Positions 2,037 to 62,554 of a DNA stretch of 64,000 bases are shown here, piece after piece. The position numbers and the translations under genes were made by a program. The notes beneath the pieces are model-generated. The model saw only the letters and a program-made list of their open reading frames with translations, had not been told where the DNA came from and did no database searches. How positions within the stretch are numbered: the stretch's first letter is position 1; each line of letters opens with the position of its first letter. Origin of the DNA: Mercurialis annua (Eukaryota > Streptophyta > Magnoliopsida > Malpighiales > Euphorbiaceae); contig NC_065572.1 of NCBI RefSeq assembly GCF_937616625.2, positions 53,059,653 through 53,123,652 of the forward strand, given 5' to 3'.

Positions 2037-2738
2037 ATGCCCCAGGGCTCGATGACTACTGTGATGCAGCTTTCTTATCAGCAGCATAGGATTGCGCATC
2101 AGGTAGCGTCAGGATATGATCAGACAGGAAGTACCTTCACTGGTCAGAGAGGCCGTGGTTATGCAAATCGAGGAGGAAGGAACAGCGGAGGTCGTGGTAC
2201 TGGCCAGACTTCGCAGGCTGGTGGGAGTCAGGCCAGGGTCTTTGCACTGAATCCTCAGGAGGCTCAGGCTTCCAATGTTGTGGTGCAAGGTACCTTTCCT
2301 ATCGCTTTTCAAGACGCATTAATTTTATTTGATCCGGGCGCTACACATTCGTTCGTTTCGCCTAGCTTCGCTAGTAAGTTAGGAGTGCAACCAGCGTGTC
2401 TTAGGAATCCTTTATCCGTAGCTACTCCAGTCGTAGAGAGTGTGGAAGTTAGTATCGTTTATCCGTCTTGTCCTGTGAGAGTTCAAGGACGAGATTTGTT
2501 AGTTGATTTGCTTTTACTTGAGGTATTAGCTTTTGACATCATACTAGGAATGGATTGGTTAGCTCAGCACTATGCTAACATGGATTGCCGAAAGAAGACG
2601 GTAACGTTCAACGCACCTGGAATTGAAATTGTTTCAATCCAGGGTGATAAGATGGAATCTTCTACGACTATTATTTCGGCTATTAAAGCTTGTCGTATGT
2701 TAAAGAAGGGATGTCAAGGATTCTTAGCAATAGTATGA
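2037..2738 (+). pseudogene. Gypsy-1 aspartic protease region
   Basis: It continues in the same frame as gag after the TAG. A Gly/Arg/Gln-rich linker leads to a retropepsin fold with [14 protein letters not shown] near 2320-2360 and the later hydrophobic ILGMDWL motif near 2545. The catalytic triad reads D-P-G where D-S/T-G is usual. Both copies in this window share DPG, so it is probably a lineage trait. The protease would cleave the Gag-Pol polyprotein. The frame is closed by TGA at 2736-2738, opposite an Arg codon in Gypsy-2. Confidence 0.9.
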
Positions 2739-4110
2739 GACGTGGAAAAGAAAAGTGCGAGTTTAAGTGATGTACCAGTTATATTGGAATATCTGGATGT
2801 TTTTCCAGAGGAATTACCTGGATTACCCCCAGATCGTGAGATTGAATTTTGTATCGAATTGGCCCCTGACACAAATCCAATATCGATACCTTCTTATCGA
2901 ATGGCGCCAGCAGAGCTCAAGGAACTTAAGGATCAGTTAGAAGAATTGTTTGATCGTGGTTTCATCAGACCAAGTGTATCCCCGTGGGGTGCACCAGTGC
3001 TATTTGTGAAAAAGAAAGATGGATCGCTTCGACTTTGCATTGATTATCGACAATTGAACAAGGTGACGATCAAGAACAAGTATCCGTTACCTAGAATTGA
3101 TGATTTATTTGATCAATTACAAGGAGCGAAGTATTTTTCCAAGATCGATTTAAGATCAGGCTATCATCAGCTGAAGATTCGCGACGATGACATTCAAAAT
3201 ACTACTTTCCGAACTCGATATGGACATTACGAGTTTCTTGTTATGTCATTTGGATTGACGAACGCGCCGGCGGATGGATTTGATGAATAGAATATTCAAA
3301 CCGTACTTGGATCAGTTCGTGATCGTATTTATCGACGATATTTTGATCTATTCACGTTCAGAAGAAGAGCACGCACATCATCTACGGATAGTAGTACAGA
3401 CACTAAGAGAGCATCAGCTTTATGCCAAATTCTCGAAATGTGAATTTTTGCTAACGGAAGTAGCTTTCTTAGGTCATGTGGTATCACAAAGCGGTATCAA
3501 AGTTGACCCAAAGAAGATCGAATTTGTGATGGAATGGAAAAGACCTGAATCGGTTAAAGAAGTTCGAAGTTTCCTTGGTTTAGCGGGATATTATCGACGA
3601 TTCGTAGAGGACTTTTCGAAGATCGATGTACCTTTAACGAAGCTAACTCAGAAGAATGCGAAATTCAACTGGACGGACCGGTGTGAACTCAGTTTTCTGA
3701 AACTGAAAGAGTGTCTGACGACGGCACCAGTCCTAGCATTACCAGAAGGAACGGAAGGGTTCACAGTTTACTGTGATGCGTCAAGAGTTGGATTAGGATG
3801 TGTCCTAATGCAACGTGGTCGAGTAATTGCATATGCCTCATGACAGCTTAAGAAGCACGAAGCGAACTATCCGACACATGATCTAGAACTAGCGGCAGTG
3901 ATATTCGCGCTAAAGATTTGGAGGCATTATTTGTACGGCGCCACGTGCGAGATATTTTACGGACCATAAAAGTCTCAAGTACATTTTCGATCAACGAAAA
4001 CTGAACATCAGACAGAGGAGATGGATGGAGTTACTAAAAGATTATGACTGTACGATACAATACCATCTAGGCAAGGCCAACGTTGTGGCGGATGCGTTAA
4101 GCAGAAAGTC
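2739..4110 (+). pseudogene. Gypsy-1 reverse transcriptase and RNase H
   Basis: This would copy element RNA to cDNA. Seen in order: the RT fingers motif [15 protein letters not shown] (about 2895), [19 protein letters not shown] (about 3003-3060), the frame jump at about 3266-3275 in the [11 protein letters not shown] segment, the intact catalytic FIDDILIYS (about 3330-3355), [18 protein letters not shown], and RNase H starting at YCDAS (about 3768). TGA at 3841-3843 replaces CGA of the other copy. An extra T in the run at about 3955-3959 shifts the frame before TDHKSL. RNase H ends at the LSRKS motif near 4110. Confidence 0.92.
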
Positions 4111-5694
4111 GGCAGGGAGTCTCGCGCATATTACAACGGCATGGCGGAGACCATTAATCAACGAGATTTCATCTCTCGGAAACCTAATGGCTCAGCTAAC
4201 GATACGATCAACGTTGTTAGATCGAATTAAGGAGTTGCAAGCAGATGACCCTCAATTAAGGCATCTAATTGAAGAAGTACAACAAGGAAAGAGTCAAGAT
4301 TTCAGTATCGTCAACGGAATACTGAAATATGGCAATCGAATGTGTGTGCCAGACGTAGAAGACTTAAGACAGAAGATCATGGAAGAGACTCACGGAACAA
4401 TTTACAGCGTTCATCCAGGTTCTACAAGATGTATCATAACATCAAGACAACGTATTGGTGGAGCGGAATGAAGAAAGATATCACAGAGTTTGTGGCTAAA
4501 TGCCAGACTTGTGAGCAACTCAAGCTAGAACATCAGCGACCTTACGAATTTCTTCAGCCGTTACCCATTCCGGAGTGGAAATGGGAACAAATCACGATGG
4601 ATTTCGTAGTCGGATTGCCCAAGACACAGAAAGGTTTTGACTCCATTTGGGTAATCGTGGATCGTTTGACGAAGTTAGCGCACTTCATACCGATCAAAAC
4701 GACATATTCGGCAGCAAAGTTAGCTCATGAGTACATTGATAAGATCGTGAGCCTACACGGAGTTCCCGTGTCAATCGTGTCAGACAGAGGTTCCGTATTT
4801 ACCTCTCATTTCTGGAAAAGCCTACAAGAAGCGTTAGAAACACGATTGAACTTCAGCACTGCGTTTCATCCCCAGACGGACGGCCAGTCTAAACGAACGA
4901 TTCAAACGTTAGAAGATATGCTTCGACTATGCGTACTAGACTTTGGAGGTAGTTGGGACACTTACCTACCTTTAGTTGAATTCGCCTACAACAACTGTTA
5001 TCACTCGAACATCGAGATGGCTCCATACGAAGCGTTATCAGGGCGTAAATGTTGATCCCCTATCTGTTGGGATGAAGTTGGCGAATGGAAGCTCACTGGA
5101 GCAGAGATCATCCAGATTACGTCAAAGAAAGTACCGTTAATTAAACAACGTTTGACTACTGCTTCCAGTCGACAGAAGAGTTACGCGGACCCCAAGAGGA
5201 AAGATATCGAATTTCAGATCAGAGATTTCGTGTTTCTTATGGTATCACCGATGAAAGGAGTTATTCGTTTCGCAAAGAAGGGCAAGTTGGCTCCGAGATA
5301 CGTCGGACCCTACCCGATCGTGGAGCGTATAGGCTCTGTTGCCTATAAGCTAGACTTGTCTCCGAAGATGTTGCAAGTTCATCATGTCTTCCATATTTCC
5401 ATGCTTCGGAAATATGTACCAGACCCTTCTCGAATAATCCAACCGCAAGTGGGGGATGTGAGCGAGGAATTAACCTACGAAGAACGACCCGTGCAGATTG
5501 TAGACACACAGATACGACAACTGCGGACGAAGAGGATTCCGATGGTGAAAGTTCTATGGAGGAGTCAGTCCGTAGAAGAGTGCACGTGGGAAACAGAAGA
5601 GGATATGAGGCAGAAGTACCCATATCTTTTTACTCAAGGTACGTGGCTAAATTTTAAATTCGAGGACGAATTTATTTTAAGGGGGGGGGGTGAA
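4111..5694 (+). pseudogene. Gypsy-1 integrase with C-terminal chromodomain
   Basis: It would insert cDNA into chromatin. Visible parts are the HHCC zinc motif (ETHGT...VHPGS...CQTCEQLKLEH, about 4385-4530) with a one-base frameshift near 4428-4432, the catalytic core (TMDFVVGLP, SDRGSVF, QTDGQS), the GPY/F-type module (APRYVGPYPIVERIGSVAYKLDLS, about 5290-5360) and a chromodomain-like tail (VKVLWRSQSVEECTWETEEDM, about 5545-5610). The catalytic glutamate after DGQS is lysine here but Glu in Gypsy-2. TGA at 5053-5055 replaces CGA. About 12 residues present in Gypsy-2 after INEI are missing near 4165. The tail FEDEFILRGG overlaps the PPT. Confidence 0.92.
5679..5693 (+). other. Polypurine tract, Gypsy-1
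   Basis: A purine run with ten consecutive G lies directly before the 3' LTR start TGTAATACCCC (5695). It is the expected plus-strand primer. The same arrangement occurs in reverse at 55261-55273 and in a variant form at 51108-51120. Confidence 0.9.
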
Positions 5695-7819
5695 TGTAAT
5701 ACCCCAAAATATTTTACGGTAATTAAGTCGTGCCACGTGTCGAGATTTCCGATAAATTAAACTAAGAAGACTTTAATTTAATTATATCGGGAATTTTGAA
5801 TAAATTTTAATAAGGTAATTAGCGGGATTTGAGGATTTAACTTCAAAAATTAATATAAAATAAATTATAAATCCCGTAACGATAGTTATTTCGCCAAAGT
5901 CCATGAAATAATATATATTATTAGTGGTAAAAGTTTCGAGTCAATCGGAGAACGTTTAAAATTTGGATGCGAATAGGTTTTGGACTAAATTGAAACTTTT
6001 GAAAAGTTTCAAGGACAAAAGCGCAAATTAGTCGGATTATATAATATTTCTTTCAGATGAAGGAATCACCAGAATCTTCATTCCCTTTCTTTCGTTCCTT
6101 CGCCGTTTTCATCGCTGTTTCCGTCGCTCGATTCTGTTTCTCGTCCGTTTCCGACGTTCTATAACTCAAAACGATCGTATTTCAACGGGTAATCACGATA
6201 AGCTTGACATTTAAACGTTTAAACGAATATATTTTGAGTTATATCGATTCAAAGTTTTAGGCCACGAAACGATTTTATCGTTTTATCGATTATAGGATCG
6301 TATTTGGATGTTTTGAAATTAGAAATAGCGTTTTGGATGCATTTAGGGCGTTTTTACGCCTAGGAGCATGTCGGAATCGACTCCCGGGCAAAGGCCCGCG
6401 GCTGTGCGTCGCATAGCCGAACTGTGCGAACGCACAGTCTATCGACTGTGCGAACGCACAGTCAGGTGACTCTGCGAACGCACAGTCACGCATTGTGCGA
6501 ACGCACAGTCTGCCTAGACTGTGCGAATGCACAGTCACGCACTGTGCAAACGCACAGTCACACCGTGCGAACGCACAGTCACACTGTGCGGACGCACAGT
6601 CCTCTGTGCAATTACACAGGCAGACGCGCGTACGCACAGTGTTTTCGCCAATCGACCTAGATTTTTGAGAAAATTATATACGCGCATATCGAGATTTGAA
6701 ATGGATTAACATTCGATTAATTATTGTTTAATTAGAGGCGTTAACCTAATGAGGTTAAAAGAGGATTAATTATAAACGATATACAATCCGTAAACGAGTT
6801 GAATACCGTTTAACGGGATATACATGAGAAGCACGACGATTAATGAAAGTAAAACGTGTCGAGTCTTGAGTCTAGGTAAATCTTAGAATAGGATTTTGAT
6901 ATGAGTCAAATGTTTTAAAATTGTTTTAGATCCGGCGAGGCAAGAAGCAGCTGGACCAGTAGTTCGGGAAGCTTGACGTTCCAAAGCCCCGACGTATTTT
7001 TGGATAAGCGTTTTCTGTGAGTTTATACGATTTGCTTTTAAAGTATTTATTTAAGCAATTACTTTATACTGCTTTGCGTTTGATTTGCATGTTTATAGTG
7101 CGAAATCTTTATATGAATTGCATATACGCTTGATTTGAAACCAGTATTGATCCGATGGAACGTGCTACCTATTGAGCGGCAATAGGACTGTGTGATCATC
7201 AGTTTTGATTTGATACAGCTGTGAATACAATTAAGAACACGAATTCCAAAGTCAGATGTACGACTGTGATACGAGAGTAAACTCGGTTACAGTGTAACCT
7301 GAGCCCCGTATCTAGTGGGTTAGACCCACCATTGGAATTACGGGATTTTTCGCGACTGACGTGGTAGAGTGTGAATACTCCCGGGTCGGACTATTGGATA
7401 AGTTTTCCTCTGAGTACATACGTTTAGCATGTTCGAGGATTAGGGTTTCAATCAGATCCTGTACTTGGCTGCATATGATTGATTACGGTTTTATGTTTTA
7501 TTTGAATACTTATTAGTAAATGTATGAAATCACTCAGTATATCCCAATATACTGACCCCTCACATACTTTCTTTCAGGTTAAAGACGCTTTGAAGTAACG
7601 GACTTCTATCCTACTTCCAGAAGTCTGTATTTTTGAAAGTATGTAAAGGAATAGTACTTTACTCTTAGAGCTGCAGTAGATATAAGTTTGTAAGTCGGCT
7701 TGTAATATATGGTTTTCTGTAAATATAACTTTAATGTTTTAAAATATATATGTTTTACGCTTGCTGCGTTTTGATGTTTGAGATTGCCAGAGGATATGTA
7801 TGCCTCGCATGTGTTTTCA
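5695..7819 (+). repeat. Gypsy-1 3' LTR, truncated at its right end
   Basis: It begins TGTAATACCCC after the PPT. A TATA-like TATATAA lies at 6038-6044 and a palindrome array at 6401-6640. A splice-donor-like site at 6198 is damaged (ATAAGC where Gypsy-2 has GTAAGC). The acceptor-like TTTCAG/G is at 7572-7578. Homology with the 5' LTR stops at 7819, about 140 bases short of the expected end. Confidence 0.92.
6401..6640 (+). repeat. Palindrome array, ACTGTGCGAACGCACAGT units
   Basis: About ten 18-base units with 8-base complementary arms around a two-base AA centre are spaced roughly 23-25 bases apart, for example at 6421-6438, 6445-6462, 6518-6535 and 6583-6600. Arms and centre vary a little between units, and the last two are degenerate. 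A related palindrome (GGCTGTGCG-T-CGCATAGCC) at 6401-6419 precedes them. The array starts about 365-385 bases downstream of the TATA-like box. Short ORFs across it are by-products of the repeat. Confidence 0.95.
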
Positions 7820-8894
7820 AAACATTCATCTCTATTTGGGGGTCGTGATATGTTGCTAGATGTCACTCTCGATCTACGAGAATTAATAATTAAATGGGAT
7901 TTAATTATTTATTATAAGAAAGGCGTTTCTTATGTCTCTCGTTGCCATATAGATGTGAACCTAGTTAGTCACACACAATAGAGTGTGCAACCGATTGAGT
8001 TTACGAAAGATCGATTTCATATAGATACTAGCATATCTTGGAAATTAATTTAAGATGAAAAACAAGTACAAATTAGGGACTAATTTGTAAGAGTTATAAA
8101 TTAGTAGGAACCTAATTGTACTATGTCCAAGTTAATTAGGGACTAATTTATAAGAGTTATAAATTAGTAGGAACCTAATTATATTTTAACCAATTTTTAT
8201 GATTAGAAGGCTTAAGTAATTAATTAGTGTAATTAATAATACTTAAAACACTAATCATAAGTTAATGGAATGATGATGTCATGGTGATGTAATGAGATAA
8301 GGAAATAAGCTTATATATGATGTCACCTATGTGATTTTACCACATGAAAGGTGTCATGTGGTGGCAACACCTTTGCTTGGTGTGTGACACCTAGCATGCA
8401 AGATGTTGCATTCTTAAGCAAAGCTCTACCTTATAAATAGAGCTTGGCTTTGCTCATTTTATCACCACAAAACACACATCTCACTACAAAGTTGTAGAGA
8501 GAGAAAGCACTTGAAGGAGTTCAAGTAGTCATCAATCACGGAAAAAACTTGACGACGTTTTCATACATCCGAGCAAGGTCGTGATCGCGGCGAGAATTTG
8601 AGCTTAGGGCTGCTCGGCAAGAGGAACTCTTGCAGGATTACTTCAACGCGAGGATTCAATCGGACGCATACTCGTGTGGACGAGCTTGAGGTCGCCGTAC
8701 TTTCGGGACTACAAGAATCGTTGGAGAATCGACATAGATATTCTTCTTACGATTCCTAGATGCATGTTTTAATTACTAAATGATACGATGATCCATTTGT
8801 TGTTGATATGATCAACTTCAGGATTCGGATTGTTGGAATTTCGATTTTGAATTGAAATATACGATCCGGACCCGAGCGTCCCGTTGCGCCAACA
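7820..8894 (+). repeat. Copia 5' LTR remnant
   Basis: It is closely similar to 14622-15722, including the conserved GCGCCAACA terminus. It lacks the first ~890 bases of the LTR seen at 13736-14621. The junction to Gypsy-1 sits in a short A run (7819/7820) shared by both partners, which suggests end joining after a deletion. A TATA-like TATAAATA is at about 8432-8439. Confidence 0.9.
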
Positions 8895-8895
8895 G

Positions 8896-8909
8896 TGGTA
8901 TCAGGAGCC
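8896..8909 (+). other. Copia primer binding site
   Basis: TGGTATCAGGAGCC follows the LTR terminus CCAACA by one base and resembles the methionine-tRNA PBS of plant copia elements. Confidence 0.85.
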
Positions 8910-9224
8910 ACCGTATAATCAAGTATTATCGCTTTACGATTGAATACATGTATAAATAATCATGGACTTAGGAATTAATATTGGGCATGTAATTTATAAT
9001 TTTGAGGGCTTAAGTTTTTTTTTCTTTCAAAACGAACAAACGCTATTGTGATATTAATTACATTTGATTAAATTCTGTCTAGGAGATTGGTACTTAAGTG
9101 GTCCGCTCGTGACCCTCCAATCTATCATGTGAATTTTTCTAATGTGATCATTTAACACAATACGTGATTCGCTTGTGCATTATGTTGTCATCAACGAGAT
9201 GTGCGGAGAAAGCGAAACCAGAAA

Positions 9225-9430
9225 AAAAACCCCAAAAAAATAATAATATTTTTTTCATAAAAACCAAAAATGCTGAAAAACGGGTTTTACACCCGGGAAA
9301 AAAGTTTTAGCTCGAAAAAAAAATTCGTAAAAAACCGAAATGCTGAAAAAGGGGTTTTACACCCGGGAAAAAGTTCCCAACTCGAAAAAAAAACCGTAAA
9401 AAAAATTGTAAAAAAAAGTTTTTTTTTTCG
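9225..9430 (+). repeat. A/T-homopolymer-rich leader with a duplicated ~70-base unit
   Basis: A unit containing ATGCTGAAAAA, GGGTTTTACACCCGGG and AAAAAGTT occurs twice (about 9269-9310 and 9340-9385), embedded in runs of A and ending in a T run at 9419-9428. It lies between the copia PBS and the first recognisable coding relic. Confidence 0.7.
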
Positions 9431-13600: not shown

Positions 13601-13735
13601 TCTCTAAAAGATAGCATCAGCAAATAACATGGTTGACCCACTAACAAAGCCCATGACATAAAGTCATTAAGATTTCCATCTTGAGAAGATCGGGCTTAGA
13701 TATAGTTGTCAATGGCACTAGTGCAAGTGGGAGAT

Positions 13736-15722: not shown

Positions 15723-17869
15723 AACATAACATACGTAGCCTACAAAAATATATAAACAGGGACATCAAAAAGAACACTAAACCAAATGCACTGCTGTCAA
15801 GGACACGACTCTATTGACACAGGACCACTACTGCAGCTCTACGGAAGCCAGGGACTATACATGCTATTGGTAACTTCCGGACCCAGAAGAGTGGACTCTA
15901 GCCAAGTCCAGATACTAAGCACCTGAAAATATTTAAAACCAACGGGTCAGACTATGCTGAGTGAGATTACAAATTACTAACGGTATTATAAATATAACAT
16001 CACATTTTAAAGCAATCATACATATATTATACAATACAAGCCAAGTATTTGATCCGATCGAAACTTTGATTTCATAAACAACCTTAAACCATATAATTCC
16101 TAGTATTCATAGTGAATACAAACTTTTATGGGGTTACGGGATAGCTTCACCGTGTCAACCACCATCTGGTCGGGCATCGGGATAGTTCAACCATTATGCC
16201 TCATACCATCTCAAATCCAACCGTACTGCGGAGTCCCGAGATAATTCAACCAAGGCTACTCACTAGATACAGGCCGCGGGATAATTCACCCAAGCTGACC
16301 TCGTATCACATGACAACATGTTAATCTATTTCTACTCTATTTACTACGACTTACCGACATTGGTGATCACACAGCCTATTGACATTCAATAGGTAGCTGT
16401 TCCCTCGGATCGCACACCAGATTCTTATAATTAAAACAATCAATTATACGATATATAATACAATTAAAATCATATAACATGGGATGTATGCGATAATATT
16501 ATTCATAGTATATAAAATAATTTTTACGAATAATATATGAAAGTAAAATGTAACTCACTTGACCTGCTATCTAATCTACAATGCACTCGATATGCTGTCA
16601 AACCCGTCTAATCCCAAAACTACCTCGTTGCTTATCGATACGACTGATACATATATAATTCAAATACGCGTTTAGCATATAAACGTGAACCTCGTAAATC
16701 TAAAACCCTAGGTTATAGATTAGGTTATTACTATTTCATTTCGTATTCAATTTCTCAATTCCGATAACTTCTTAATTGAACTCTTATTCAATCAATATGC
16801 TTATATCGATTTACTTATCATACTAACGTCCATTTCTATAATGTTTCATAACATTTATTGAGCTAATACGTCCATTTGTGTATATGAAATCTCCGGAGGG
16901 AGGGGCACGTCGTGCCCCCCCCCCCCTTTGTCGCGTCGCGCCTCTGCCTGGCGCGTCGCGCCAGGGCCATTTCTGGCCCGTCGCGTTGCGCTAGGCCAGA
17001 ATGGCCTGGTCGCATCGCGCTAACTGCCAGCTTGTCGCGCCCCCTACTTTCCAGTAGGGTGAGGCCACGCCTCTGACTCCGATACTCTCCCTACCTCATT
17101 CCGACATGCTAGCTTAACAAAACCCAACTCAAAGCTAGCCGAAACATCCAAAAACGGCATGATTTTATCACTTTCGATCAATCTGTAGCGTCACAACTTA
17201 AAACAGCCCATATTCATCCATTTTTCGTGATAAAAACATTCAACTGACCTTGTTTTAAAGCTCGGGGAAGGTAAAGGATTGAATTCTAGAGAGATCGACA
17301 CCAAGAACGCGCGATTCAGACGAGAAACGGCGAAACCGTGTTGATCGCAAGATAATCGTCGAAAACCCTTAGGTGTAAGTTTCTATCTGATGCTTCCTTC
17401 TTCTTTTCATATGATTTTGCTTATATATGTTGGCTAAAAGGTCATTTTGATCCTCTTATTCATTAATTTAAACCATTTCTCTTTTAAGCTTATTCTTTTA
17501 ACCAAACGGTTAATTATTCACTTTAACTCAATTACGTACGTATTATTTATATCCAAATAAATAATACTAACTTATAATTACCAATTTCCGTCAATAATAT
17601 TTTAATAGCAATTCCCGAGATTTAACTCATTATTTACCAAATTGGGACCTAAACTTTATTTTTATAACTTTTCCTTCCGTTCCTTTTAGTCCCACATTTT
17701 ATTCTTTAAACGAATTCTAATATCAAACTTTCCGTATTAGAATTATTAAAATCAACCTACTCGGATCTTGTCTACCCAGTGACTTCGATATTCTTTGTTC
17801 TATTGGTTCGGGTTATCGGAAAAAGGTTAAATTACCAATTCCGGCAGCGCCAACATACAGGGTATTACA
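15723..17869 (-). repeat. Antisense gypsy LTR fragment (related to Gypsy-1/2 LTRs)
   Basis: Read in reverse, it starts TGTAATACCC (17869), with a TATA-like box at 17421-17429 and a donor-like AAG/GTCAGT at 17248. A palindrome array follows at 17040-16902, then the CTCACTCAG...CTGACCC module and acceptor-like TTTTCAG/G ending at 15923. It also has the ACCTATTG...AATAGG block near 16370-16395 seen in Gypsy-1 at about 7150-7200. The last ~170 bases of the LTR are missing where copia sequence begins. It is a diverged family member. Confidence 0.8.
16902..17045 (-). repeat. Palindrome array, GC-rich CGTCG-centred units
   Basis: Perfect inverted repeats with a single central T: GGGGCACG-T-CGTGCCCC at 16902-16918 and CCTGGCGCG-T-CGCGCCAGG at 16947-16965. 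Looser units follow (GGCC...GGCC stems, GCGTTGCGC, GCATCGCGC) up to about 17045. The array begins about 380 bases downstream, in LTR sense, of the TATA-like box. That position matches the arrays in Gypsy-1 and Gypsy-2, but the arms are unrelated. Confidence 0.9.
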
Positions 17870-18814
17870 GAACAACACAGGCTCCACGGACAGGTCCTCC
17901 CTGAAAAGACACCAGAAAAGAAGAATAAGAAGAATAACAGATTCAGAAAACTCAAAGACAAAAGGAACGAGGCAAACCACGCTAGATCATACATGTAGCT
18001 CGACCAGGAAACATACACGAGGTCAGCAGCACGGTAGCCCCTCATATTAGCGCGAAAAACTGGTCGTACGACATCCCGACCACATAGGATAGACAAAGGC
18101 GGCGCTCTAGGCAGAAGATGCACGTGGGGTCCTTACTTCAAGTTGAGCACGCGTTCCCCCAGAAACCAGACTCGTCAATCTGGGCCATGCAGCATATAAT
18201 ACATGCACCTCCCCCCCCCCCCCCTCCTCGTCCGTGGCTAAATCAGCCAGCGCTCCCCCGGAAGGGCATTCCACTACAAATGGATCCACAAAATACTCCA
18301 AGTAAGTATATAAGTCAAATACAGTTTAAACATTAACCAGTTTGTTGTATGTTATGTACACCAATCAAGGCCAGCTTGTTCAGTTGTCTTCTAGAAGCAG
18401 CTCCCAAACTCTGAGTCAGAATACGGAATGTATCCCAGAACCTCAGCAATGGAAAACCTATCTTCGGTAGAAGGCCGAAATCCTGAAAGAATACCAGACT
18501 GGATCACCTAAATCTAAGAAAATACGGATAAAAGTGAATGAGGATGTATCCACTTCCCCCCGAGGCATTTATAAGCGCAAGCCTTCCTTGGACAGGCTAC
18601 TTAGAGCCATTTATTCCTTAATGAACCCAGAATCAAAAGGCTCCATTATAAATTCAGAACCAGAAAACTCCCCGCTAGATCTGGCCAGACAAAGTACAAA
18701 TCCATGGAGGACCTTCACAAAAGACAAGACTCTCCATTACAGGACCAGCTAATGACAAGAGTCATAACCTCAGAATACATGGTAAGAGTCACGTCAATCC
18801 TAGAGTATTAGAAT

Positions 18815-23160: not shown

Positions 23161-23177
23161 AATGATAAAATACTATT

Positions 23178-23645: not shown

Positions 23646-23712
23646 ATGAAATTTTGTGTCGTGGCCCATGAATAAACCCCTTATCCGACCTAAAACTTTT
23701 CCCACTCACTTT

Positions 23713-44022: not shown

Positions 44023-44143
44023 TGTAATAACCCGTAAAAAATTTTAATTTTTCTTATGGGTTTCCGGTAATAAGTTGGGTCGCTTGCGGTTTTCGTGGTT
44101 TGATTTGAGGTTCGGGTTGAGTTTGGGGCTGGGTTCGGGTTGT

Positions 44144-44252
44144 GGTTCAACCAAAATTTGGTTGAACCAAACCATGGTTCAACGTTCGGGTTGAACCAGG
44201 TCTCGTTTGGACCGTTGGTCTCGTTCGAGACCAACAGGTCTCGATCGAGGCC
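44144..44252 (+). repeat. Palindrome cassette upstream of the LTR-B TATA box
   Basis: There are four stems. GGTTCAACCAAA-A-TTTGGTTGAACC (44144-44168) has perfect 12-base arms. GGTTCAAC-GTTCGG-GTTGAACC lies at 44176-44197. GTTGGTCTCG-TT-CGAGACCAAC (44214-44235) has perfect 10-base arms. GGTCTCGA/TCGAGGCC (44237-44252) has one mismatch. The TATA box lies about 65 bases downstream. Two different arm sequences coexist in this one cassette. Confidence 0.93.
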
Positions 44253-44318
44253 TGACTCGCAGCAGTTAGGCTGCGTTTACTTCCCTACTTTTCAATCGTT
44301 TTTGGCATACGTCCTTCC

Positions 44319-44325
44319 TATAAAT
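44319..44325 (+). promoter_or_regulatory. TATA box of LTR-B
   Basis: CCTATAAATCCC follows the palindrome cassette, and a donor-like TTCG/GTACGT lies about 130 bases further on (44447). Confidence 0.65.
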
Positions 44326-45018
44326 CCCTAATATTTCAACCCTAATATTTTTCCACACTTCAAGCAAACCTTAGCCGCCCTTTCTCCTCCAAAATCTCTG
44401 AAATTTATTGAGCTAATCATCCTCCAAACTCTAGTGTTCATTCGGTACGTTTTGTTCTTAAATTTCAGTTTTAGTTTAATCGACACTTTCATATTCTTAA
44501 TTGTTCTCTTTCGTTTTTGTAATACCCCATACTCCTATGACGTTAATTGTTGACGTATGACGTGTGAATTGTCAGTATCTTTTCATGACACGTGTGATAT
44601 ATAAAGAGTTAAGTGAAATCAAAGTTATATGGATTACGGATTTAATAATTTGATGGAAATGGAAGGGTTATATGTTAAGCAAAGCAATGAAACGAAATGT
44701 GAGAACATGTCACTCAACGATTTGATCACGGATAGAATGGAATTCTGTAAATTCTTAAGGTGAGATGAATACCTATGAATCATATATGAAGTGACATAGT
44801 GAGTGTTCAAATTGGAGTTAATTCGAAATCATTTCGATGAAGTTTCAAGGAGTTTTCAGGACAATGCGCAGGTGCTGCCTGCACACTGACACTGTTTAGT
44901 AAAACGACGATCTCTCCCAATTGAACCGTTGGATCAAGATGAAATTTGACATAGGCGTTCCTAAGAGGCAAATCTATAAACTGACTGTTGGATTTTTGAA
45001 TCTGGCAAATTTTGAGTA

Positions 45019-45065
45019 GTGTGCGAACGCACACCCTAAAATTTAAGGAGTGTGCGAACGCACAC
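45019..45065 (+). repeat. U3 palindrome pair of Gypsy-3 5' LTR
   Basis: Two perfect GTGTGCG-AA-CGCACAC units lie at 45019-45034 and 45050-45065, just upstream of the TATA box. The sister LTR has three units at 51622-51693. Confidence 0.95.
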
Positions 45066-45086
45066 TTACTAGGTCAGAAGCAGGGG

Positions 45087-45450: not shown

Positions 45451-45636
45451 CTGTACGCTGCACAGACAATCTGTGCGAGCGCACAGCCACTGTGCGCGAA
45501 CGCACAGTCTCCCTTGTGAGGACTGTGCGAACGCACACGAGGTCTGTGCGAACGCACACGAGGTCTGTGCGAACGCACAGTCTCCTGAAAAGAGACTGTG
45601 CCAACGCACAAGCAGACCGTGCAAGCGCACAGTCTG
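45451..45636 (+). repeat. Intronic palindrome array of Gypsy-3 5' LTR
   Basis: About seven units related to CTGTGCGAACGCACAG, with arm variants (CTGTGCGAGCGCACAG, CTGTGCCAACGCACA, CCGTGCAAGCGCAC), begin about 365-380 bases downstream of the TATA box. The sister array at 52079-52235 has one 21-base unit fewer. Confidence 0.95.
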
Positions 45637-51621: not shown

Positions 51622-51693
51622 AGTGTGCGAACGCACACCCTAAAATTTAAGGAGTGTGCGAACGCACACTCAATGTGTGCGAACGCACACTTA
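51622..51693 (+). repeat. U3 palindromes of Gypsy-3 second LTR (three units)
   Basis: Three GTGTGCGAACGCACAC units lie upstream of the TATA box at 51712. The 5' LTR has two, so one 25-base unit was gained or lost since the LTRs separated. Confidence 0.94.
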
Positions 51694-52078: not shown

Positions 52079-52235
52079 TACGCTACACAGACAATCTGTG
52101 CGCGCACAGCCACTGTGCGCGAACGCACAGTCTCCCTTGTGAGGACTGTGCGAACGCACACGAGGTCTGTGCGAACGCACAGTCTCCTGAAAAGAGACTG
52201 TGCCAACGCACAAGCAGACCGTGCAAGCGCACCGT
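52079..52235 (+). repeat. Intronic palindrome array of Gypsy-3 second LTR
   Basis: Same order of units as 45451-45636 but with one CGAACGCACACGAGGTCTGTG unit fewer and a shortened first unit (CTGTGCGCGCACAG). Confidence 0.94.
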
Positions 52236-53042: not shown

Positions 53043-55258
53043 TGTCACGACCCAATCTCAGGGCCGAGACCGGGCGCTAGGGAATGGGAGTGGTTGCTCC
53101 GAAACCCGTAGCAAGCCTAAAAACGTAAAATAATTTTTCGCGAAACATATACGTCATGCATGATATACATAGACACGTGTCATGCAGAAGCACACAGGCC
53201 AGGCACACATATCCTCTGCCAATCACAAATATCACAACGCAGCTGGCGTAAAACATATATATTTTAAAACATTAAAGTTATATCTACAGAAAACTATATA
53301 TTACATCTGACTTACAAAACACTTATCTACTGCAGCTCTAAGAGTAAAGTACTGTTTCTTTACATACTCAAAAATACAGACTTCTAGAAGTAGGATAGAA
53401 GTTCGTTGCTTCAAAGCGTCTTTATCCTGAAAGGAAATCTGTGAGGGGTCAGTATATTGGGATATACTGAGTGAGTTCATACATTTACTAATAAGTATTC
53501 AAATAAAATCATAAACGATATTCAATCGTATGCAGCCAAGTACAAGATCCGAATGAAACCTTAATCCTCAAACATACTAATAATCGATCGCTCAACCAAA
53601 TCATAAATATCAATTGCGAGTCCAACTCGCTGGTGGCCCCGCCACTAGATACGGGGACTCCAGACTACACCGTAGCCGAGTACTCTCTCGTATCAAAATC
53701 ATAAACCCAATTGTAAATTTCATATTCATCATCAGCTCCCAGCTGAGTCATATCAAAACTGGTGATCAAACAGTCATATTCTCGCCCAATAGGTAGCACG
53801 TTCCATCGGATCAATACTGGTTTCAAATCAAGCATATGCAATTCGTATAAAAAGAATTCGCATCGTAACTATGCAAAATAACCATAAAGCAATATAAAAT
53901 ATTTTCATGAATAAATACTTTAAAAGCAAATCGTATAAACTCACTGAAAACGCTTATCCAAAAATACGTCGGGGCTTTAGAACGTCAAGCTTCCCGAACT
54001 ACTGGTCCAGCTGCTTCTTGCCTCGCCGGATCTAAAACAATTTTTAAAACATTTGACTTGAATTAGAATCCTATTCTAAGATAGACTCTAGACTCGAGAC
54101 TCGACACGTTTTACTTTCATTAATCGTCGTGTTTCTCGCGTATACTCCGATAAACGGTATCAACCTCGTTTACGGATCGTATATCATTTCTAATACAATT
54201 CGCATTTAACCCCGTTAGGTTAACTATTTACGTTAATCGATCATTTACTATTTGATTTTCAATTCTCGGTATGCGCGTATGACAAACGGGTGTCCAACTA
54301 ATTCAATCGGGTACGAAGATCGGGGAGGTGCACGTTCGTGTCTGGGGGGGTACACGATCGTGCACCTTGATGGTACACGTTCGTGTACCTTCGTACACGG
54401 TCGTGTAACATGTATTGGTACACGTTCGTGTACCATTGATGGTACACGTTTGTGTACCACAAGTGCACGCATGCACGATCCCCCGGAATCGATTTCTGGG
54501 GTTTCCGACCTTCTATATACGTAAAAACTCTCCAAATTCAACCAAAACGCGTATTCTAAGCTTAAAACGCTATACATCAATCCTATAATCGATAAAACGA
54601 TAAAATCGTTTCGTGGCCTAAAACTTTGAATTGATATAACACAAAATATATCCGTTTAAACGATAAAACGTCAAGCTTACCGTGATTCGCCTCGTGAATA
54701 CGATCGTTTGGAGTTATAGAACGTCGGAAATGGGCGAGAAACGGAATCGAGCGACGGAACCGTAAGATATCGTCGTTGAAGCTAAGAAAGGGAAAAGGAA
54801 TAGGAGATGAAGGATTCGGGATCCTTCATCAGATAAAGATTATATATATATATCGGCTAACTTACACTTTGGTCCTTGAAACTTTTCAAAAGTTTACATT
54901 TAATCCAAAACCTATTCAATTAATCTTTATATTAATTCATATACGTATTATTTATATCCGAATAAATAATACTAACTCAATATATATATATCCATCGAAA
55001 ATCCTCAAATTTCAATTTTCGAGGCTCAATTGGCTAATCTGCACTTTAGCCCCTAAACTTTTCATAAACTACAATTTAGCCCCAAAATGCCTCCACATCC
55101 AAATTTTCAATATTAACTCCTTAAATCCCGCTAATTGACTTATTAAATTTTATCCTGAATTTCCGATATAAATTAAATTAAATTCTTTTTAATCTAAATT
55201 ATCGAAATCCTAACACGTGGCACGACTTAAATATCTTAAATTATTTTGGGGTATTACA
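53043..55258 (-). repeat. Gypsy-2 3' LTR (2216 bp)
   Basis: Ends TGTAATACCCC (55258 reversed) and GTGACA (53043). In element sense: TATA-like run at 54852-54838, donor CACG/GTAAGC at 54680, palindrome array 54480-54328, acceptor TTTCAG/G ending at 53427, giving a predicted 1254-base intron within the LTR. Confidence 0.95.
54328..54480 (-). repeat. Palindrome array, GGTACACGTTCGTGTACC units (3' LTR)
   Basis: About seven units, including perfect GGTACACG-TT-CGTGTACC at 54372-54389 and 54419-54434 and variants with AT, GG or TT centres (54349-54366, 54441-54458). A GTGCACGCATGCAC stem closes the array. It lies where Gypsy-1 has its CTGTGCG array, but the arms are unrelated. Confidence 0.95.
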
Positions 55259-55260
55259 TT

Positions 55261-55273
55261 CACCCCCCCCTTA
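55261..55273 (-). other. Polypurine tract, Gypsy-2
   Basis: The reverse strand reads TAAGGGGGGGGTG just before the 3' LTR start, as in Gypsy-1. Confidence 0.9.
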
Positions 55274-55303
55274 AAATAAATTCGTCCTCGAATTTAAAAC
55301 TAG

Positions 55304-56835
55304 CTACGTACCTTGAGTGAAAAGGTAAGGGTATTTCTGCTTCATATCCTCTTCTGTCTCCCACGTGCATTCTTCTACGGATTGACTCCTCCATAGAACT
55401 TTTACCATCGGAATCCTCTTCATTCCCAATTGTCGTATCTGCGTGTCGACAATTTGCACTAGCCGTTCTTCATAAGTGAGTTCCTCGCTCACATCCACCA
55501 CTTGCGGTTGAATTATTCGAGAAGGGTTTAGTACATATTTCCGGAGCATGGAAATATGGAAGACAGGATGAACTTGCGACATCTCCGGTGGCAGGTCTAG
55601 CTTATAGGCAACTGAGCCTATGCGCTCCACTATCTGGTATGGTCCGACATATCTTGGAGCCAACTTGCCCTTCTTTTCGAAACAAATAACTCCCTTCATC
55701 GGTGACACTTTGAGAAACACGTAGTCTCCGATCTGAAATTCGATATCTTTTCTTTTGGGGTCCGCGTAACTCTTCTGTCGACTAGAAGCAGTATTCAAAC
55801 GCTGCTTTATCAATGGTACTTTTTTTGACGTAATCTGGATGATCTCTGTTCCAGTGAGCTTCCGTTCGCCGACTTCATCCCAACAAATAGGGGATCGACA
55901 TTTACGCCCGTATAACGCTTCATATGGAGCCATCTCGAGTGGTAGCTGTTGTTGTAGGCGAATTCGACTAAAGGCAGGTACATGTCCCAACTACCTCCAA
56001 AGTCTAATACGCATAGTCGAAGCATGTCTTCTAATGTTTGAATCGTCCGCTCAGACTGACCGTCTGTCTGAGGATGAAACGCAGTGCCGAAATTCAATCG
56101 CGTTCCTAACGCATCTTGTAAACTCTTTCAGAAATGAGAGGTAAATATGGAACCTCTGTCTGAAACGATTGACACGGGAACTCCGTGTAGGCTCACGATC
56201 TTATCGATGTAAATCTCTGCCAACTTTGCTGCAGAATACGTCGTCTTGATAGGTATGAAGTGCGCTGACTTCGTCAAGCGATCCACAATTACCCAAATGG
56301 AATCAAAACCTTTTTGCGTCTTGGGCAATCCAACTACGAAATCCATCGTGATTTGCTCCCACTTCCACTCCGGGATGGGTAACGGCTGAAGAAATCCGTA
56401 AGGTCGCTGATGTTCCAATTTGACTTGCTGACAAGTCGGACATTTCGCCACGAACTCTGCAATGTCCTTCTTCATTCCGCTCCACCAGTACGTTGTCTTG
56501 ATGTCATGGTACATCTTCGTGGAACCAGGATGAATGCTATAGATCGTTCCATGAGTCTCTTCCATGATCTTCTGTCTCAAGTCTTCCACGTCTGGAACGC
56601 ACATTCGATTGCCGTATTTCAGCATTCCGTTGACGATACTGAAATCTTGACTCTTTCCTTGTTGAACTTCCTCAATTAGATGCTTTAATTGAGGGTCGTC
56701 CGCTTGCAACTCTTTGATCTGATCTATCAACGTCGATCGTATCGTTAGCTGAGCCATTAGGTTTCCGAGAGATAAAATTTCGAACTCCACTCCTTGGCTA
56801 AACATCGTATGAATCTCGTTGATTAATGGCCTCCG
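55304..56835 (-). pseudogene. Gypsy-2 integrase with chromodomain
   Basis: The HHCC motif ([13 protein letters not shown]...CPTCQQVKLEH, about 56570-56425), the core DFVVGLP, SDRGS and QTDGQSER (catalytic Glu present, unlike Gypsy-1), the GPY/F module and the chromodomain tail VKVLWRSQSVEECTWETEEDM (about 55410-55345) are readable. Damage: TGA at 56128-56130 in place of the Trp codon of Gypsy-1, a small deletion shifting the frame near 55935, and TAG at 55304-55306 opposite TGG in Gypsy-1. Confidence 0.93.
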
Positions 56836-58242
56836 TCATGTCGTCGTAACATGCGCGAGACTTCCTGCTGATTTCCTACTTAATGCATCCGCCACTACGT
56901 TGGCCTTGCCTGGATGGTACTGTATCGTGCAGTCATAATCCTTTAGTAACTCCATCCACCTTCGTTGTCTGAGGTTCAACTCTCGTTGATCGAAAATGTA
57001 CTTCAAGCTTTTATGATTTGTAAAGATCTCGCACGTAGCGCCGTATAAATAATGTCTCCAGATCTTCAACGCAAATATTACCGCTGCTAATTCCAGATCA
57101 TGCGTCGGGTAGTTTGTTTCGTGCTTCTTGAGCTGTCGCGAAGCGTATGCAATTACTCTACCGTGTTGCATAAGGACACATCCTAATCCGACTCTTGATG
57201 CATCACAGTATATTGTGAATCCTTCCGTTCCTTCTGGTAATGCTAATACTGGTGCCGTCGTCAGATACTTTTTCAGTTTCAGAAAACTGAGTTCACACTG
57301 GTCCGTCCAGTTGAATTTTGCGTTTTTCTGAGTTAGCTTCGTCAAAGGTACAGCGATCTTCGAAAAGTCCTGTACAAATCGTCTGTAGTATCCCGCCAAG
57401 CCGAGGAAACTTCTAACTTCCGTAACTGATTCGGGCCGCTTCCATTCTATCACAGCTTCAATCTTCTTTGGATCAACCTTAATGCCGCTTTGTGAAACCA
57501 CGTGACCTAAGAAAGCCACTTCCGTTAGCCAAAATTCACATTTAGAGAATTTGGCGCAAAGCTGATGCTCTCTTAGCGTCTGTAGTACTATCCGCAGATG
57601 TTGAGCATGCTCTTCTTCTGAACGTGAATAGATCAAAATATCGTCGATAAACACGATCACGAACTGATCCAAGTACGGTTTGAATATCCTATTCATCAAA
57701 TCCATGAAGGCTGATGGGGCGTTCGTCAATCAGAATGACATAATGAGAAATTCGTAATGTCCGTATCGAGTTCGAAAAGCAGTCTTCTGAACATCATCAT
57801 CACGAATCTTCAGCTGATGATAGCCTGATGTCAATCTTGGAGAAGTACTTCGCTCCTTGTAACTGATCGAATAGGTCGTCGATTCTAGGTAACGGATACT
57901 TATTCTTGATCGTTACCTTGTTCAGCTGTCGATAATCGATGCATAATCGAAGTGATACATCCTTCTTTTTCACGAATAGTACTGGTGCACCCCATGGGGA
58001 TACACTCGGTCTAATAAAACCGCAATCAAACAATTCTTCTAGCTGATCCTTAAGTTCCTTGAGTTCTATTGGCGCCATACGATAAGGAGGTATTGATATT
58101 GGGTTCGTGTCGGGAGCCAATTCGATACAAAACTCAATCTCACAATCTGGGGGTAATCCATGTAATTCTTCTGGAAAAACGTCTGGATACTCTGATACAA
58201 CTGACACATCACTTAAATTTACACTTTTCTTTTCCACATCCC
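56836..58242 (-). pseudogene. Gypsy-2 reverse transcriptase and RNase H
   Basis: [19 protein letters not shown] (about 57978-57920), FIDDILIYS intact (about 57655-57630), [11 protein letters not shown] and RNase H from YCDAS to ALSRKS. A ~5-base deletion at about 57830 shifts the frame after KIDIR. TGA at 57730-57732 replaces GGA. RNase H reads TNHKSL where Gypsy-1 has TDHKSL, so one catalytic Asp is Asn. The segment closes at TGA 56836-56838, a Trp codon in Gypsy-1. Confidence 0.93.
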
Positions 58243-58897
58243 TCACTATCGCTAAGAATCCTTGACATCCTTTCCTTAACATGCGACAAGCTTTAATAGT
58301 TGAGATAATACTCGTAGAAGATTCCATCTTGTCACCCTGAATTGAAACAGCTTCAATTCCAGGCGTGTTAAATGTCACCGTCTTCCTCCGGCAATCCACA
58401 TTGGCGTAGTGCTGAGCTAGCCAATCCATTCCTAGTATGACGTCAAAAGCTAATACCTCGAGTAAAATCAAGTCAACTAACAAATCTCGTCCTTGAACTC
58501 TTACAGGACAAGACGGATAAACGATACTAACTTCCACACTTTCTCCAACTGGAGTAGCTACTGACAAGGGATTCCTAAGATATGCTGGTTGCACTCCTAA
58601 CTTACTAGCGAAACTAGGCGAAACAAACAAATGCGTAGCGCCCGGATCAAATAAAATTAATGCGTCTTGAGAAGCGATAGGAAAGGTACCTTGCACCACA
58701 GCATTGGAAGCCTGAGCCTCCTGAGAATTCAGTGCAAAGACCCTAGCCTGACTTCCGCCAGCCTGCGAAGTCTGACCAGTACCGCGTCCTCCGCCATTTC
58801 TTCCTCCACAATTTCCATAGCCACGGCCTCTCTGGCCAATGAAGGTACTCCCTGTCTGATCATATCCTGACGCTGCCTGATGAGCAGTCCTCTGCTG
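58243..58897 (-). pseudogene. Gypsy-2 aspartic protease region
   Basis: Gly/Arg/Gln-rich linker, [14 protein letters not shown] (about 58660-58620) and ILGMDWL (about 58445-58425). It is in the same frame as gag part 2 and separated from it only by TAG 58898-58900. DPG in place of D-S/T-G is shared with Gypsy-1. Confidence 0.9.
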
Positions 58898-60087
58898 CTA
58901 ATAAGAAGGTTGTACTACAGTAGTCATCGAGCCTTGGGGCATCTGCCTCGGACAGTCTCTAGCAAAATGGCCCCGTTGACCACAGTTAAAACATGCTCCA
59001 GTAGCAATATAGCACGCGCCGTAGTGCCTCTTATTACAGTTCAGACATATAGGAACTCCGCCTCCCATATCACTCATCGATCTGGCACTAAATCCGGTGC
59101 CTGAAGTACTGACTTTAGTTCCATACCGAGCTTTCTTATTTCTCTGCTGACGTGATGGGGGTCGAGAATAACTTCTAACATATGATTGGGTAGGTGCGCT
59201 CTGTACGCTGTGAAACACATCACTCCTCACAGGCGCAACATTGGAAGGATCGGGAATCTTCCCAAAACGGATCAGAGAAACTTCCATTTGCCTAGCGCTA
59301 TCGATCAGTTGCACTAGGGTTCTTCCGATATCAGATGGCAGACTCACAAATTCAGCTCCTAAACCCTCTATAAACCTTGAGTTCACCCTGACTGGGTCTA
59401 TAGTCAGGTCTGGTGCAAACCTACTAACTCTGGTAAACTCTGTCACAAACTCTTGCACAGACCGATTGCCTCTACTCAAGGTCAACCACTGACTACGATA
59501 AATTTCCGTCACCGCATATGGTAAGAAGTATTCTCTAAAGTGGTTTGCGAATTCAGCCCAGGTCATAGTGTCCATGGTTGACTGAATATGCTGCTGAAAC
59601 CAATCTTTCGCAGGTCCTTTCATTGACATTTCCACCATAATGATGGTCTGTCTCTCATTAGCTTGCAGGCGTCGAGCGTTACGTTCTACTTCTTCAAGGA
59701 AATCGAGAGCATCGTCTGTACTGTCAAACTTAGTTGGCTTGGGCGCATATAAGCCAAGACGATATCTCGGTCAGTGAAAGCAACATTGCGTAGCTGTTGC
59801 TGTTGAAGTTGTTCACGATGCATATTCTGCACCTCAGCCTGATTAGCTTGCATAGCCGCAATTCCCGTAAGAAACTGATTCAGATCAAAACCCACAACAT
59901 TAGGTTGCTGGGCTTGCGCTTGCACTCCAGGTGCCTGCGCCTGGGCCTCTTGGCCACCACCTCCTCCACCCTGAACAGAAGACTCATCTTGAGCTTCTGG
60001 ATGGACGTCATGCGCCCCTTCTATAACGTTACGTGCTGCAGCGGCAGCTCGCTCTACTTCTTGTCGTTGGTCAGACATCCTGACCAA
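58898..60087 (-). pseudogene. gag: Gypsy-2 gag
   Basis: Starts MVRMSDQ at 60087 (M60078 is the likely initiator). A single-base deletion near 59743 in the AYMR(L)KPTKF segment shifts the frame; the rest reads from about 59740 to 58898. The gag core AKDWFQQHIQ...FANHFREYFLPYA spans about 59620-59520. The zinc knuckle CFNCGQRGHFARDC (about 58995-58955) is intact. TAG at 58898-58900 lies opposite CAG of Gypsy-1. Confidence 0.93.
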
Positions 60088-60318
60088 GACGAACAGCGTT
60101 ACTTAGCCACATAATCGCATATTACCGCAAACGCATACCGACTTAAACGCGCATCTCATCACATGCGAACACACACATATGACAGACTCACATCCTAGAG
60201 GAAAGCTGAAAGTTTGAAAATCAAATTAATACGTAACAAAGACAAGACTCAAGTCCTATATGCTGCAGTAGATTCCTAGGAAAATCAATCACTCTTCTGA
60301 CATAAGCAATGGTAACTG

Positions 60319-60336
60319 GACCATGCTCTGATACCA
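60319..60336 (-). other. Primer binding site, Gypsy-2
   Basis: The reverse strand reads TTGGTATCAGAGCATGGTC five bases inside the 5' LTR end, matching initiator methionine tRNA priming. Confidence 0.93.
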
Positions 60337-60340
60337 ACAT

Positions 60341-62554
60341 TGTCACGACCCAATCTCAGGGCTGAGACCGGCGCTAGGGAATGGGAGTGGTTGCTCCGAA
60401 ACCCGTAGCAAGCCTAAAAACGTAAAATAATTTTTCGCGAAACATATACGTCATGCATGACATACATAGACACGTGTCATGCAGAAGCACACATGCCAGG
60501 CACACATACCCTCTGGCAATCACAAATATCACAACGCAGCGGGCGTAAAACATATATATTTTAAAACATTAAAGTTATATCTACAGAAAACTATATATTA
60601 CAGCTGACTTACAAAACACTTATCTACTGCAGCTCTAAGAGTAAAGTACTGTTTCTTTACATACTCAAAAATACAGACTTCTAGAAGTAGGATAGAAGTC
60701 TGTTGCTTCAAAGCGTCTTTATCCTGAAAGGAAATCTGTGAGGGGTCAGTATATTGGGATATACTGAGTGAGTTCATACATTTACTAATAAGTATTCAAA
60801 TAAAATCATAAACGATATTCAATCGTATGCAACCAAGTACAGGATCCTAATGAAACCTTAATCCTCAAACATACTAATAATCGATCGATCAACCAAATCA
60901 TAAATATCAATTGCGAGTCCAACTCGCTGGTGACCCCGCCACTAGATACGGGGACTCCAGACTACACCGTAGCCGAGTACTCTCTCGTATCAAAATCATA
61001 AACTCAATCGTAAATTTCATATTCATCATCAGCTCCCAGCTGAGTCATATCAAAACTGGTGATCAAACAGTCCTATTCTCGCCCAATAGGTAGCACGTTC
61101 CATCGGATCAATACTGGTTTCAAATCAAGCATATGCAATTCGTATAAAAAGAATTCGCATCGTAATTATGCAAAATAACCATAAAGCAATATAAAATATT
61201 TTCATGAATAAATACTTTAAAAGCAAATCGTATAAACTCACTGAAAACGCTTATCCAAAAATACGTCGGGGCTTTAGAACGTCAAGCTTCCCGAACTACT
61301 GGTCCAGCTGCTTCTTGCCTCGCCGGATCTAAAACAATTTTTAAAACATTTGACTTGAATTAGAATCCTATTCTAAGATAGACTCTAGACTCGAGACTCG
61401 ACACGTTTTACTTTCATTAATCGTCGTGCTTCTCACGTATACTCCGATAAACGGTATCAACCTCGTTTACGGATCGTATATCATTTCTAATACAATTCGC
61501 ATTTAACCCCGTTAGGTTAACTATTTACGTTAATCGATCATTTACTATTTGATTTTCAATTCTCGGTATGCGCGTATGACAAACGGGTGTCCAACTAATT
61601 CAATCGGGTACGAAGATCGGGGAGGTGCACGTTCGTGTCTGGGGGGTACACGATCGTGCACCTTGATGGTACACGGTCGTGTACCATGTATTGGTACACG
61701 TTCGTGTACTTTGGTACACGTTCATGTACCATTGATGGTAAACGTTCGTGTACCACAAGTGCACGTGCACGATCCCCCGGAATCGATTTCCGGGGTTTTC
61801 GACCTGCTATATACGTAAAAACGCTCCAAATTCAACCAAAACGCGTATTCTAAGCTTAAAACGCTATACATCAATCCTATAATCGATAAAACGATAAAAT
61901 CGTTTCGTGGCCTAAAACTTTGAATCGATATAACTCAAAATATATCCGTTTAAACGATAAAACGTCAAGCTTACCGTGATTCGCCTCGTGAATACGATCG
62001 TTTGGAGTTATAGAACGTCGGAAATGGGCGAGAAACGGAATCGAGCGACGGAACCGTAAGATATCGTCGTTGAAGCTAAGAAAGGGAAAAGGAATAGGAG
62101 ATGAAGGATTCTGGATCCTTCATCAGATAAAGATTATATATATATCGGCTAACTTACACTTTGGTCCTTGAAACTTTTCAAAAGTTTCAATTTAGTCCAA
62201 AACCTATTCAATTAATCTTTCTATTAATTCATATACGTATTATTTATATCCGAATAAATAATACTAACTCAAAATATATATATATATCCATCGAAAATCC
62301 TCAAATTTCAATTTTCGAGGCTCAATTGGCTAATTTGCACTTTAGCCCCTAAACTTTTCATAAACTACAATTTAGCCCCAAAATGCCTCCACATCCAAAT
62401 TTTCAAAATTAACTCCTTAAATCCCGCTAATTGACTTATTAAATTTTATCCTGAATTTCCGATATAAATTAAATTAAATTCTTTTTAATCTAATTTATCG
62501 GAATCCTAACACGTGGCACGACTTAAATATCTTAAATTATTTTGGGGTATTACA
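60341..62554 (-). repeat. Gypsy-2 5' LTR (2214 bp)
   Basis: Pair of 53043-55258. TATA-like run at about 62145-62131, donor CACG/GTAAGC at 61974, palindrome array 61775-61626, acceptor ending at 60724 (predicted intron 1251 bases). A few base differences and one- to three-base indels separate it from the 3' LTR. Confidence 0.95.
61626..61775 (-). repeat. Palindrome array, GGTACACGTTCGTGTACC units (5' LTR)
   Basis: Same array as in the 3' LTR with small unit differences. For example, GGTACACGGTCGTGTACC at 61669-61686 is a full unit here, and an extra GGTACACGTTCATGTACC lies near 61713. Confidence 0.94.

Follow-up and report, generated by a model that had tools for sequence, protein, structure and literature searches.

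Palindrome arrays with a CG-NN-CG core and differing arms in LTRs of chromodomain Ty3/gypsy elements of Mercurialis annua

The window analyzed here covers 64,000 nucleotides of the Mercurialis annua genome (C3:53059653-53123652; whole genome 451,439,258 bases in 55 contigs) and contains LTR elements and parts thereof whose LTRs carry arrays of short palindromes (Table 1). Within element A (window 894-5760) and element C (55304-59638), we scanned 10 of the 11 open reading frames of at least 150 amino acids (all except 2742-3290), and these matched models of gag, protease, reverse transcriptase, RNase H, integrase and chromodomain. The matches include the Ty3-type capsid, integrase (4342-5052 and 56131-56805) and Chromo (5152-5757 and 55307-55990) in both elements. 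The chromodomain thus lies behind the integrase in A and in C, which is the arrangement characteristic of Ty3/gypsy chromoviruses, and the carriers of the arrays are chromodomain Ty3/gypsy elements. No gene beyond gag-pol was seen among the 10 scanned frames of A and C, a size range that smaller or spliced genes fall outside. In block C1, one open frame of 1650 amino acids occupies the greater part of the internal region between the ends of the element at 12590-17539. Across the genome, the pattern derived from the LTR end gave 1786 and 1783 matches (3,569 ends), compared to 0 in the control.

Several other repeats were observed. A repeat pair at window 7817-8894 and 14619-15722 (94% identical) probably represents the LTRs of a different element that cut into LTR A. 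A pair of 463-nt repeats (32202-32664 and 35626-36088, 93.5% identical) starts with TGATGG and ends with CCATCA or TCATCA. Inside the 5' copy of LTR B, a tandem repeat with a 40-bp unit in 4.9 copies (46613-46809) was found, which is not seen in the shorter 3' copy. Long, satellite-like tandem arrays with many self-matches and unit letters such as AAACGTTTGGAT occupy block C1 at about 4495-9325 and 20594-24341 and block C2 at about 12300-18800 and 56500-99900. The window holds no tRNA gene and no known RNA family at gathering score, and the LTR-like fragment ahead of LTR B had no blastn match of at least 60 nt in the two blocks at the cut-off used.

Table 1 Array-bearing LTRs, palindromes and carrier elements in the window.
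Feature	Position in window	Strand	Basis
Element A, 5' LTR copy (end)	639		repeat pairs, LTR end
LTR of element A, 3' copy, without its 3' end	5695..7819	+	repeat pairs, LTR end
Array A, leader part of LTR A	6401..6640	+	sequence, tandem repeat finder, unit list
LTR D array, G+C-rich, CG-N-CG core, largely degenerate	16902..17045	-	
Fragment resembling the start of an upstream-class LTR	44026..44517	+	by eye
Palindrome GTTGGTCTCGTTCGAGACCAAC in this fragment, before a TATA-like box near 44318	44214-44235		
LTR B, 5' copy, palindromes before and after the TATA-like box	44518-47487		
LTR B, 5' copy, 2 palindromes with arms of the AGTGTG type, before the TATA-like box (~45087)	45019..45066	+	
LTR B, 5' copy, array with ACTGTG-type arms, units mostly imperfect	45451..45636	+	
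LTR B, 3' copy, 3 palindromes upstream of the TATA-like box	51623..51690	+	
LTR B, 3' copy, array, one 21-bp unit fewer than in the 5' copy	52079..52235	+	
Element C, gag-pol between LTRs 53043-55258 and 60341-62554	53043..62554	-	
LTR C array, one copy, GGTACA-type arms	54328..54480	-	
LTR C array, other copy, GGTACA-type arms	61626..61775	-	

An earlier first-pass annotation of this DNA had reported arrays at six places, and arrays are present in all six. The units of array A are of the type ACTGTG-CG-NN-CG-CACAGT with a spacing of 20-24 nt. Both LTR B arrays are real and have few intact units (one exact CTGTGCGAACGCACAG each); likewise, the LTR D array exists with only two perfect palindromes having arms of at least 7 nt.

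Next, we compared the palindromes with chance expectation in 264 kb of sequence, comprising the window and two blind 100-kb stretches. The six bases on each side of every core site were checked for pairing with a threshold of at least 5/6, and the expected value assumes equal base frequencies. For the CGNNCG core, 52/262 sites passed this threshold compared to 1.2 expected, which rules out a chance origin of the CG..CG-core palindromes; as some insertions contribute both of their LTRs, the 52 sites are not independent. GC..GC (2/249) and GG..CC (1/232) cores stayed at chance, and TC..GA and CA..TG cores gave 0/803 and 7/1054. The proposal that hairpin form alone is under constraint does not agree with these numbers, as the CG-NN-CG core is itself a constraint on sequence. 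Other cores lay above expectation as well (AT..AT 85/1970, TA..TA 64/1525, TT..AA 329/5131, AG..CT 11/498, CT..AG 6/561, CC..GG 6/246, CGCG 5/153, CG.CG 4/229); CG..CG was the strongest of those tested with 20% of its sites, followed by TT..AA with 6%. We tentatively ascribe the excess of AT-type cores to TA microsatellites and a satellite array, and some of the remaining raised cores to other registers of the CG..CG arrays.

Of 47 palindromes that are G+C-rich and combine a 2-nt spacer with arms of at least 7 nt, 38 have CG..CG, which confirms the recurrence of a CGAACG centre; one shuffled copy contained 3 such palindromes with any core. At the genome level, CTGTGCGAACGCACAG with up to one mismatch had 1997 forward and 1730 reverse matches, where a unit whose centre is self-complementary is counted once per strand, compared to 1 forward and 0 reverse matches for the pattern read backwards. 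Palindrome patterns in viral contigs (43 stretches in one scan, at least 120 in another, 80 of these listed) were treated as chance: those listed were each a single site read on both strands, and no array was among them.

With respect to their position, the arrays fall into two classes. In 8 LTRs of 5 families, which represent the leader class, the distance from the TATA-like box to the array start is 363-390 nt, given that boxes and array starts were picked by eye among several candidates and that the family grouping is our own. The upstream class has its cores ahead of the TATA-like box, at a distance of about 176-337 nt from the LTR start. By the same grouping, we looked at 11 LTR families, of which 6 carry arrays. 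Five sampled LTRs or fragments of this clade yielded no array: two in block C2 (1086-3905 and 85253-88189), the LTR with its end at window position 31631, L214 and L215. The last three have no identified LTR start and may have an upstream array. Consequently, the place of the array is fixed only within one class: the fixed slot of the first-pass annotation holds for the leader class and fails for the upstream class, and copies without palindromes, which it had named as evidence against its claim, do exist in part of the clade. In the array-less LTR at C2 85253-88189 (loci L049-L050), the region preceding the TATA-like box shows, by eye, GGTCCG/CGGACC motifs that are spaced and occur in either orientation, in the place of CG-NN-CG palindromes.

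A donor-like site was observed about 110-180 nt past the TATA-like box (LTRs A-D; L001, L015, L017; blocks C1 and C2). Its distance to the array is 198-214 nt in 8 LTRs of 5 families; LTR A has an altered form of the site, and G and D a weak one. An acceptor-like stretch, CTGACCC...CAG/G, is present in 16/19 LTRs or fragments; in those with a known LTR end, it precedes this end by 277-488 nt (769 in G). Before the donor-like site, 1 ATG was seen compared to 13.4 expected (9 of 10 LTRs given). The donor-like sites and the scarcity of ATG before them would fit a possible intron in the LTR leader. Past the acceptor-like site, however, ATG is not depleted (79 seen, 71.6 expected), and the acceptor is therefore only putative.

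The arms flanking the core show a strong tendency to pair. Among 47 distinct arm pairs, picked by core and place regardless of pairing (a set without the palindromes at 44214-44242, in D and upstream in B), on average 4.38 of 6 positions were paired versus 2.43 after re-dealing the right arms (maximum 3.09 in 5000). Ten arm types are fully paired, and five pairs of these types differ by exactly one compensated base pair, for example GGTACA and GGTGCA. As a check for selection at the RNA level, mismatches were classed by type: distinct units have 8 G-U, 4 A-C and 15 others, and 18, 23 and 27, respectively, if duplicates and off-centre units are included. The middle bases of the leader arrays read AA in 36 cases and TT in one on the sense strand (L216 adds 6 AA and 2 TT). 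The 23 units of the upstream class have TT (11), AA (6) or TA (6) in the middle, in both orientations, as a symmetric DNA site would allow.

Comparison of the LTRs revealed that arm type and LTR lineage do not match. ACTGTG arms are found in L001, L015, L017 and L029, GGTACA arms in LTR C, GGTGCA arms in block C1 (43503-43656) and ACTGCA arms with GTACA variants in L216; arms of the upstream class are AGGTCT, TGGTCT, GATTCT, GGTTCT and TGTTCC. The three LTR families distinguished previously followed these arms and not the LTRs. LTRs A and C in fact belong to one family, with a common LTR end and alignable flanking segments, and LTR B is a separate LTR that carries the ACTGTG arms of A and aligns with the A family only in the array and over about the last 95-113 nt. 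Aligned locally with L001, L015, L017 and L029, which are A-type LTRs, LTR C is 81-84% identical before the array and 89-90% after it. In global alignments with L001, L015 and L017, gaps counted, the fraction of identical positions is 0.64-0.66 upstream and 0.85-0.87 downstream of the array, and only 0.29-0.36 within it. Among LTRs sharing ACTGTG arms, L017 and L015 are less like L001 in the array (0.61 and 0.64) than in the flanks (0.86-0.91), and LTR A compared with L001 is not less alike in the array (0.84) than upstream (0.82). Unrelated arms thus occupy one slot between homologous flanks, and together with the five compensated type pairs this upholds the earlier statement that symmetry is kept while the arms change.

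As a further step, we looked at changes between the LTRs of single insertions, taking the two copies as identical at birth. In LTR B, the leader array of the 3' copy has one 21-bp unit fewer than that of the 5' copy, and its upstream palindromes have one 21-bp unit more; L017 and L023 differ by one 26-bp unit. The LTR C pair, which is 97.2% identical overall, shows small gaps (1-5 bp) and 8 substitutions; its array is 0.894 identical compared to 0.973 and 0.983 in the flanks. The U1 pair has 3 substitutions, and L001 and L008 are identical across the 400 bp compared. By eye, no compensated substitution was found within any pair, the substitutions being single-sided. So units are gained or lost as a whole, and symmetry erodes base by base after insertion. 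These observations speak against the instant, symmetry-restoring copying considered in the first-pass annotation: compensated substitutions are absent, and three of the length changes correspond to exactly one unit each. Since symmetry decays after landing, the symmetry seen across families must be kept in lineages that are still moving, which would point to selection; we consider selection more likely than instant copying.

Our leading, though still tentative, explanation from the sequence is that the arrays represent clusters of dyad-symmetric regulatory sites for a putative dimeric DNA-binding factor, with arms specific to each family. Such a factor would probably be encoded by the host, since A and C show gag-pol domains only (10/11 frames scanned), and would contact both CG half-sites and read the arms, with the arrays acting as promoter-proximal or leader enhancers. 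Families might reach new arm sets by compensated changes and subsequent tandem spread of the new unit, and arm change may perhaps follow or escape paralogous factors or silencing. In favour of dyad DNA sites are the arrays on either side of the TATA-like box, both of them in LTR B, the middle bases in both orientations in the upstream class and a constraint on the CG core for which a simple stem has no use. The core enrichment, the arm pairing and the unrelated arms between homologous flanks add to this. Less easily accommodated are the near-constant sense AA of the leader arrays, for which a symmetric site has no need (although tandem copies are not independent), arms without a common consensus, which would be odd for a single factor, the loose unit spacing of about 20-26 nt and the array-less LTRs of the clade. 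One could extend this to a palindromic "lock" that re-codes itself, where core and distance to the promoter or likely donor are fixed, arms move by matched changes (ACTGTG, ACTGCA, GGTGCA, GGTACA) and arm sets form a self/non-self code among families; we regard this as unlikely. Under this extension, as arm sets are common to otherwise dissimilar LTRs, each may define families that share a trans-acting factor or a packaging pool.

The main rival to dyad DNA sites is a role of the RNA, which we judge somewhat unlikely. Here, the leader-class array would form hairpins or pairing between neighbouring units in a long 5' leader and serve packaging or dimerisation. With the array about 205 nt past the donor-like site, it would under this reading be present only on unspliced genomic RNA. 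Retroviral packaging signals likewise lie downstream of the splice donor and act in cis for packaging of unspliced RNA, and the structured leader region past a likely donor resembles them. Predicted folds of two arrays (z-scores of -10.96 and -8.29), the steady distance between donor-like site and array and the sense-strand AA bias are in agreement with such a role. However, the best folds of both arrays pair neighbouring units and do not form one hairpin per unit, the donor is altered or weak in three LTRs, and, different from retroviral packaging signals, some families also have arrays of mixed orientation upstream of the TATA-like box. Ranking below both of these readings, a mutational origin without function appears improbable: fold-back or template-switch synthesis during reverse transcription would create perfect palindromes, and slippage would multiply them. 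The whole-unit gains and losses of 21, 21 and 26 bp and the lower identity of the LTR C array relative to its flanks could be explained in this way, but blind copying gives no reason for the CG..CG core or for the steady distance to the TATA-like box, and the substitutions within LTR pairs are, by eye, single-sided.

Ranked last, and in our estimate very improbable, is an anti-silencing target of the VANC type, where a factor from the element or a partner element would bind the motif and lift silencing while motif and factor diverge. VANC binding leads to loss of DNA methylation at its targets. As far as the accessible text of the sources goes, VANC is an element-coded protein that binds tandem, divergent motifs (PMC5735166, PMC10398659), and its targets in VANDAL elements are short motifs in noncoding regions, often tandemly repeated and varying considerably between related elements (PMC5735166), a divergence pattern which the arrays resemble. 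In that same text, these motifs are not described as palindromic (PMC5735166), whereas the arrays are, and no extra gene that could encode such a factor was seen in 10/11 frames of A and C (at least 150 amino acids; 2742-3290 left out).

The closest known kind to these arrays, judged from the accessible parts of the literature, are the palindromic repeats of Sireviruses, whose description (PMC2829016) contradicts the former notion that no LTR feature with this behaviour had been reported. In the text available from this source, LTRs of these Ty1/copia elements carry repeated palindromic motifs (RM boxes) with a CGG-CCG core in 12/13 listed, Tnd-1 being the exception. Their outer bases are specific to the element and the bases in between vary; the motifs form clusters ahead of the TATA box and are termed Sirevirus-specific relative to the classic Ty1/copia elements compared (PMC2829016). 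According to excerpts of later work, the palindromic regions of maize Sireviruses are highly variable, rapidly evolving hotspots of small-RNA mapping (PMC5311732), and maize Ty3 elements are said to be without an obvious peak of such structure (PMC10760457). As in these RM boxes, the arrays consist of many palindromic units within the LTR, with a short, constant, CG-containing core, element-specific outer and variable middle bases and a location near the promoter. RM-box arrays form a CpG island; the arrays described here are G+C-rich (0.47-0.72 versus 0.32-0.36), with a CpG observed/expected ratio higher than in the remaining LTR for no more than 2/13 LTRs. The cluster upstream of the TATA box is matched by the upstream class and partly by LTR B, but not by the leader class. 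Unlike the RM boxes, the arrays belong to chromodomain Ty3/gypsy elements, have a CG-NN-CG core with variable adjoining arms, occupy a second position about 370 nt past the TATA-like box and swap arms between LTRs with alignable flanks. Our literature search retrieved no Ty3/gypsy array with a CG-NN-CG core among the matches listed.

The arrays are a Ty3/gypsy counterpart of a known LTR feature, from which they differ by a new core, a second position and arm swapping in a homologous slot. This suggests that plant LTR elements repeatedly arrive at CG-cored dyad arrays near their promoters. Since their flanks align while their arms differ, some of these LTRs amount to natural swap constructs, with which one could ask what factor reads the arms and if it acts on DNA or RNA. 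The arrays themselves possibly serve for docking, with a code that shifts over time.
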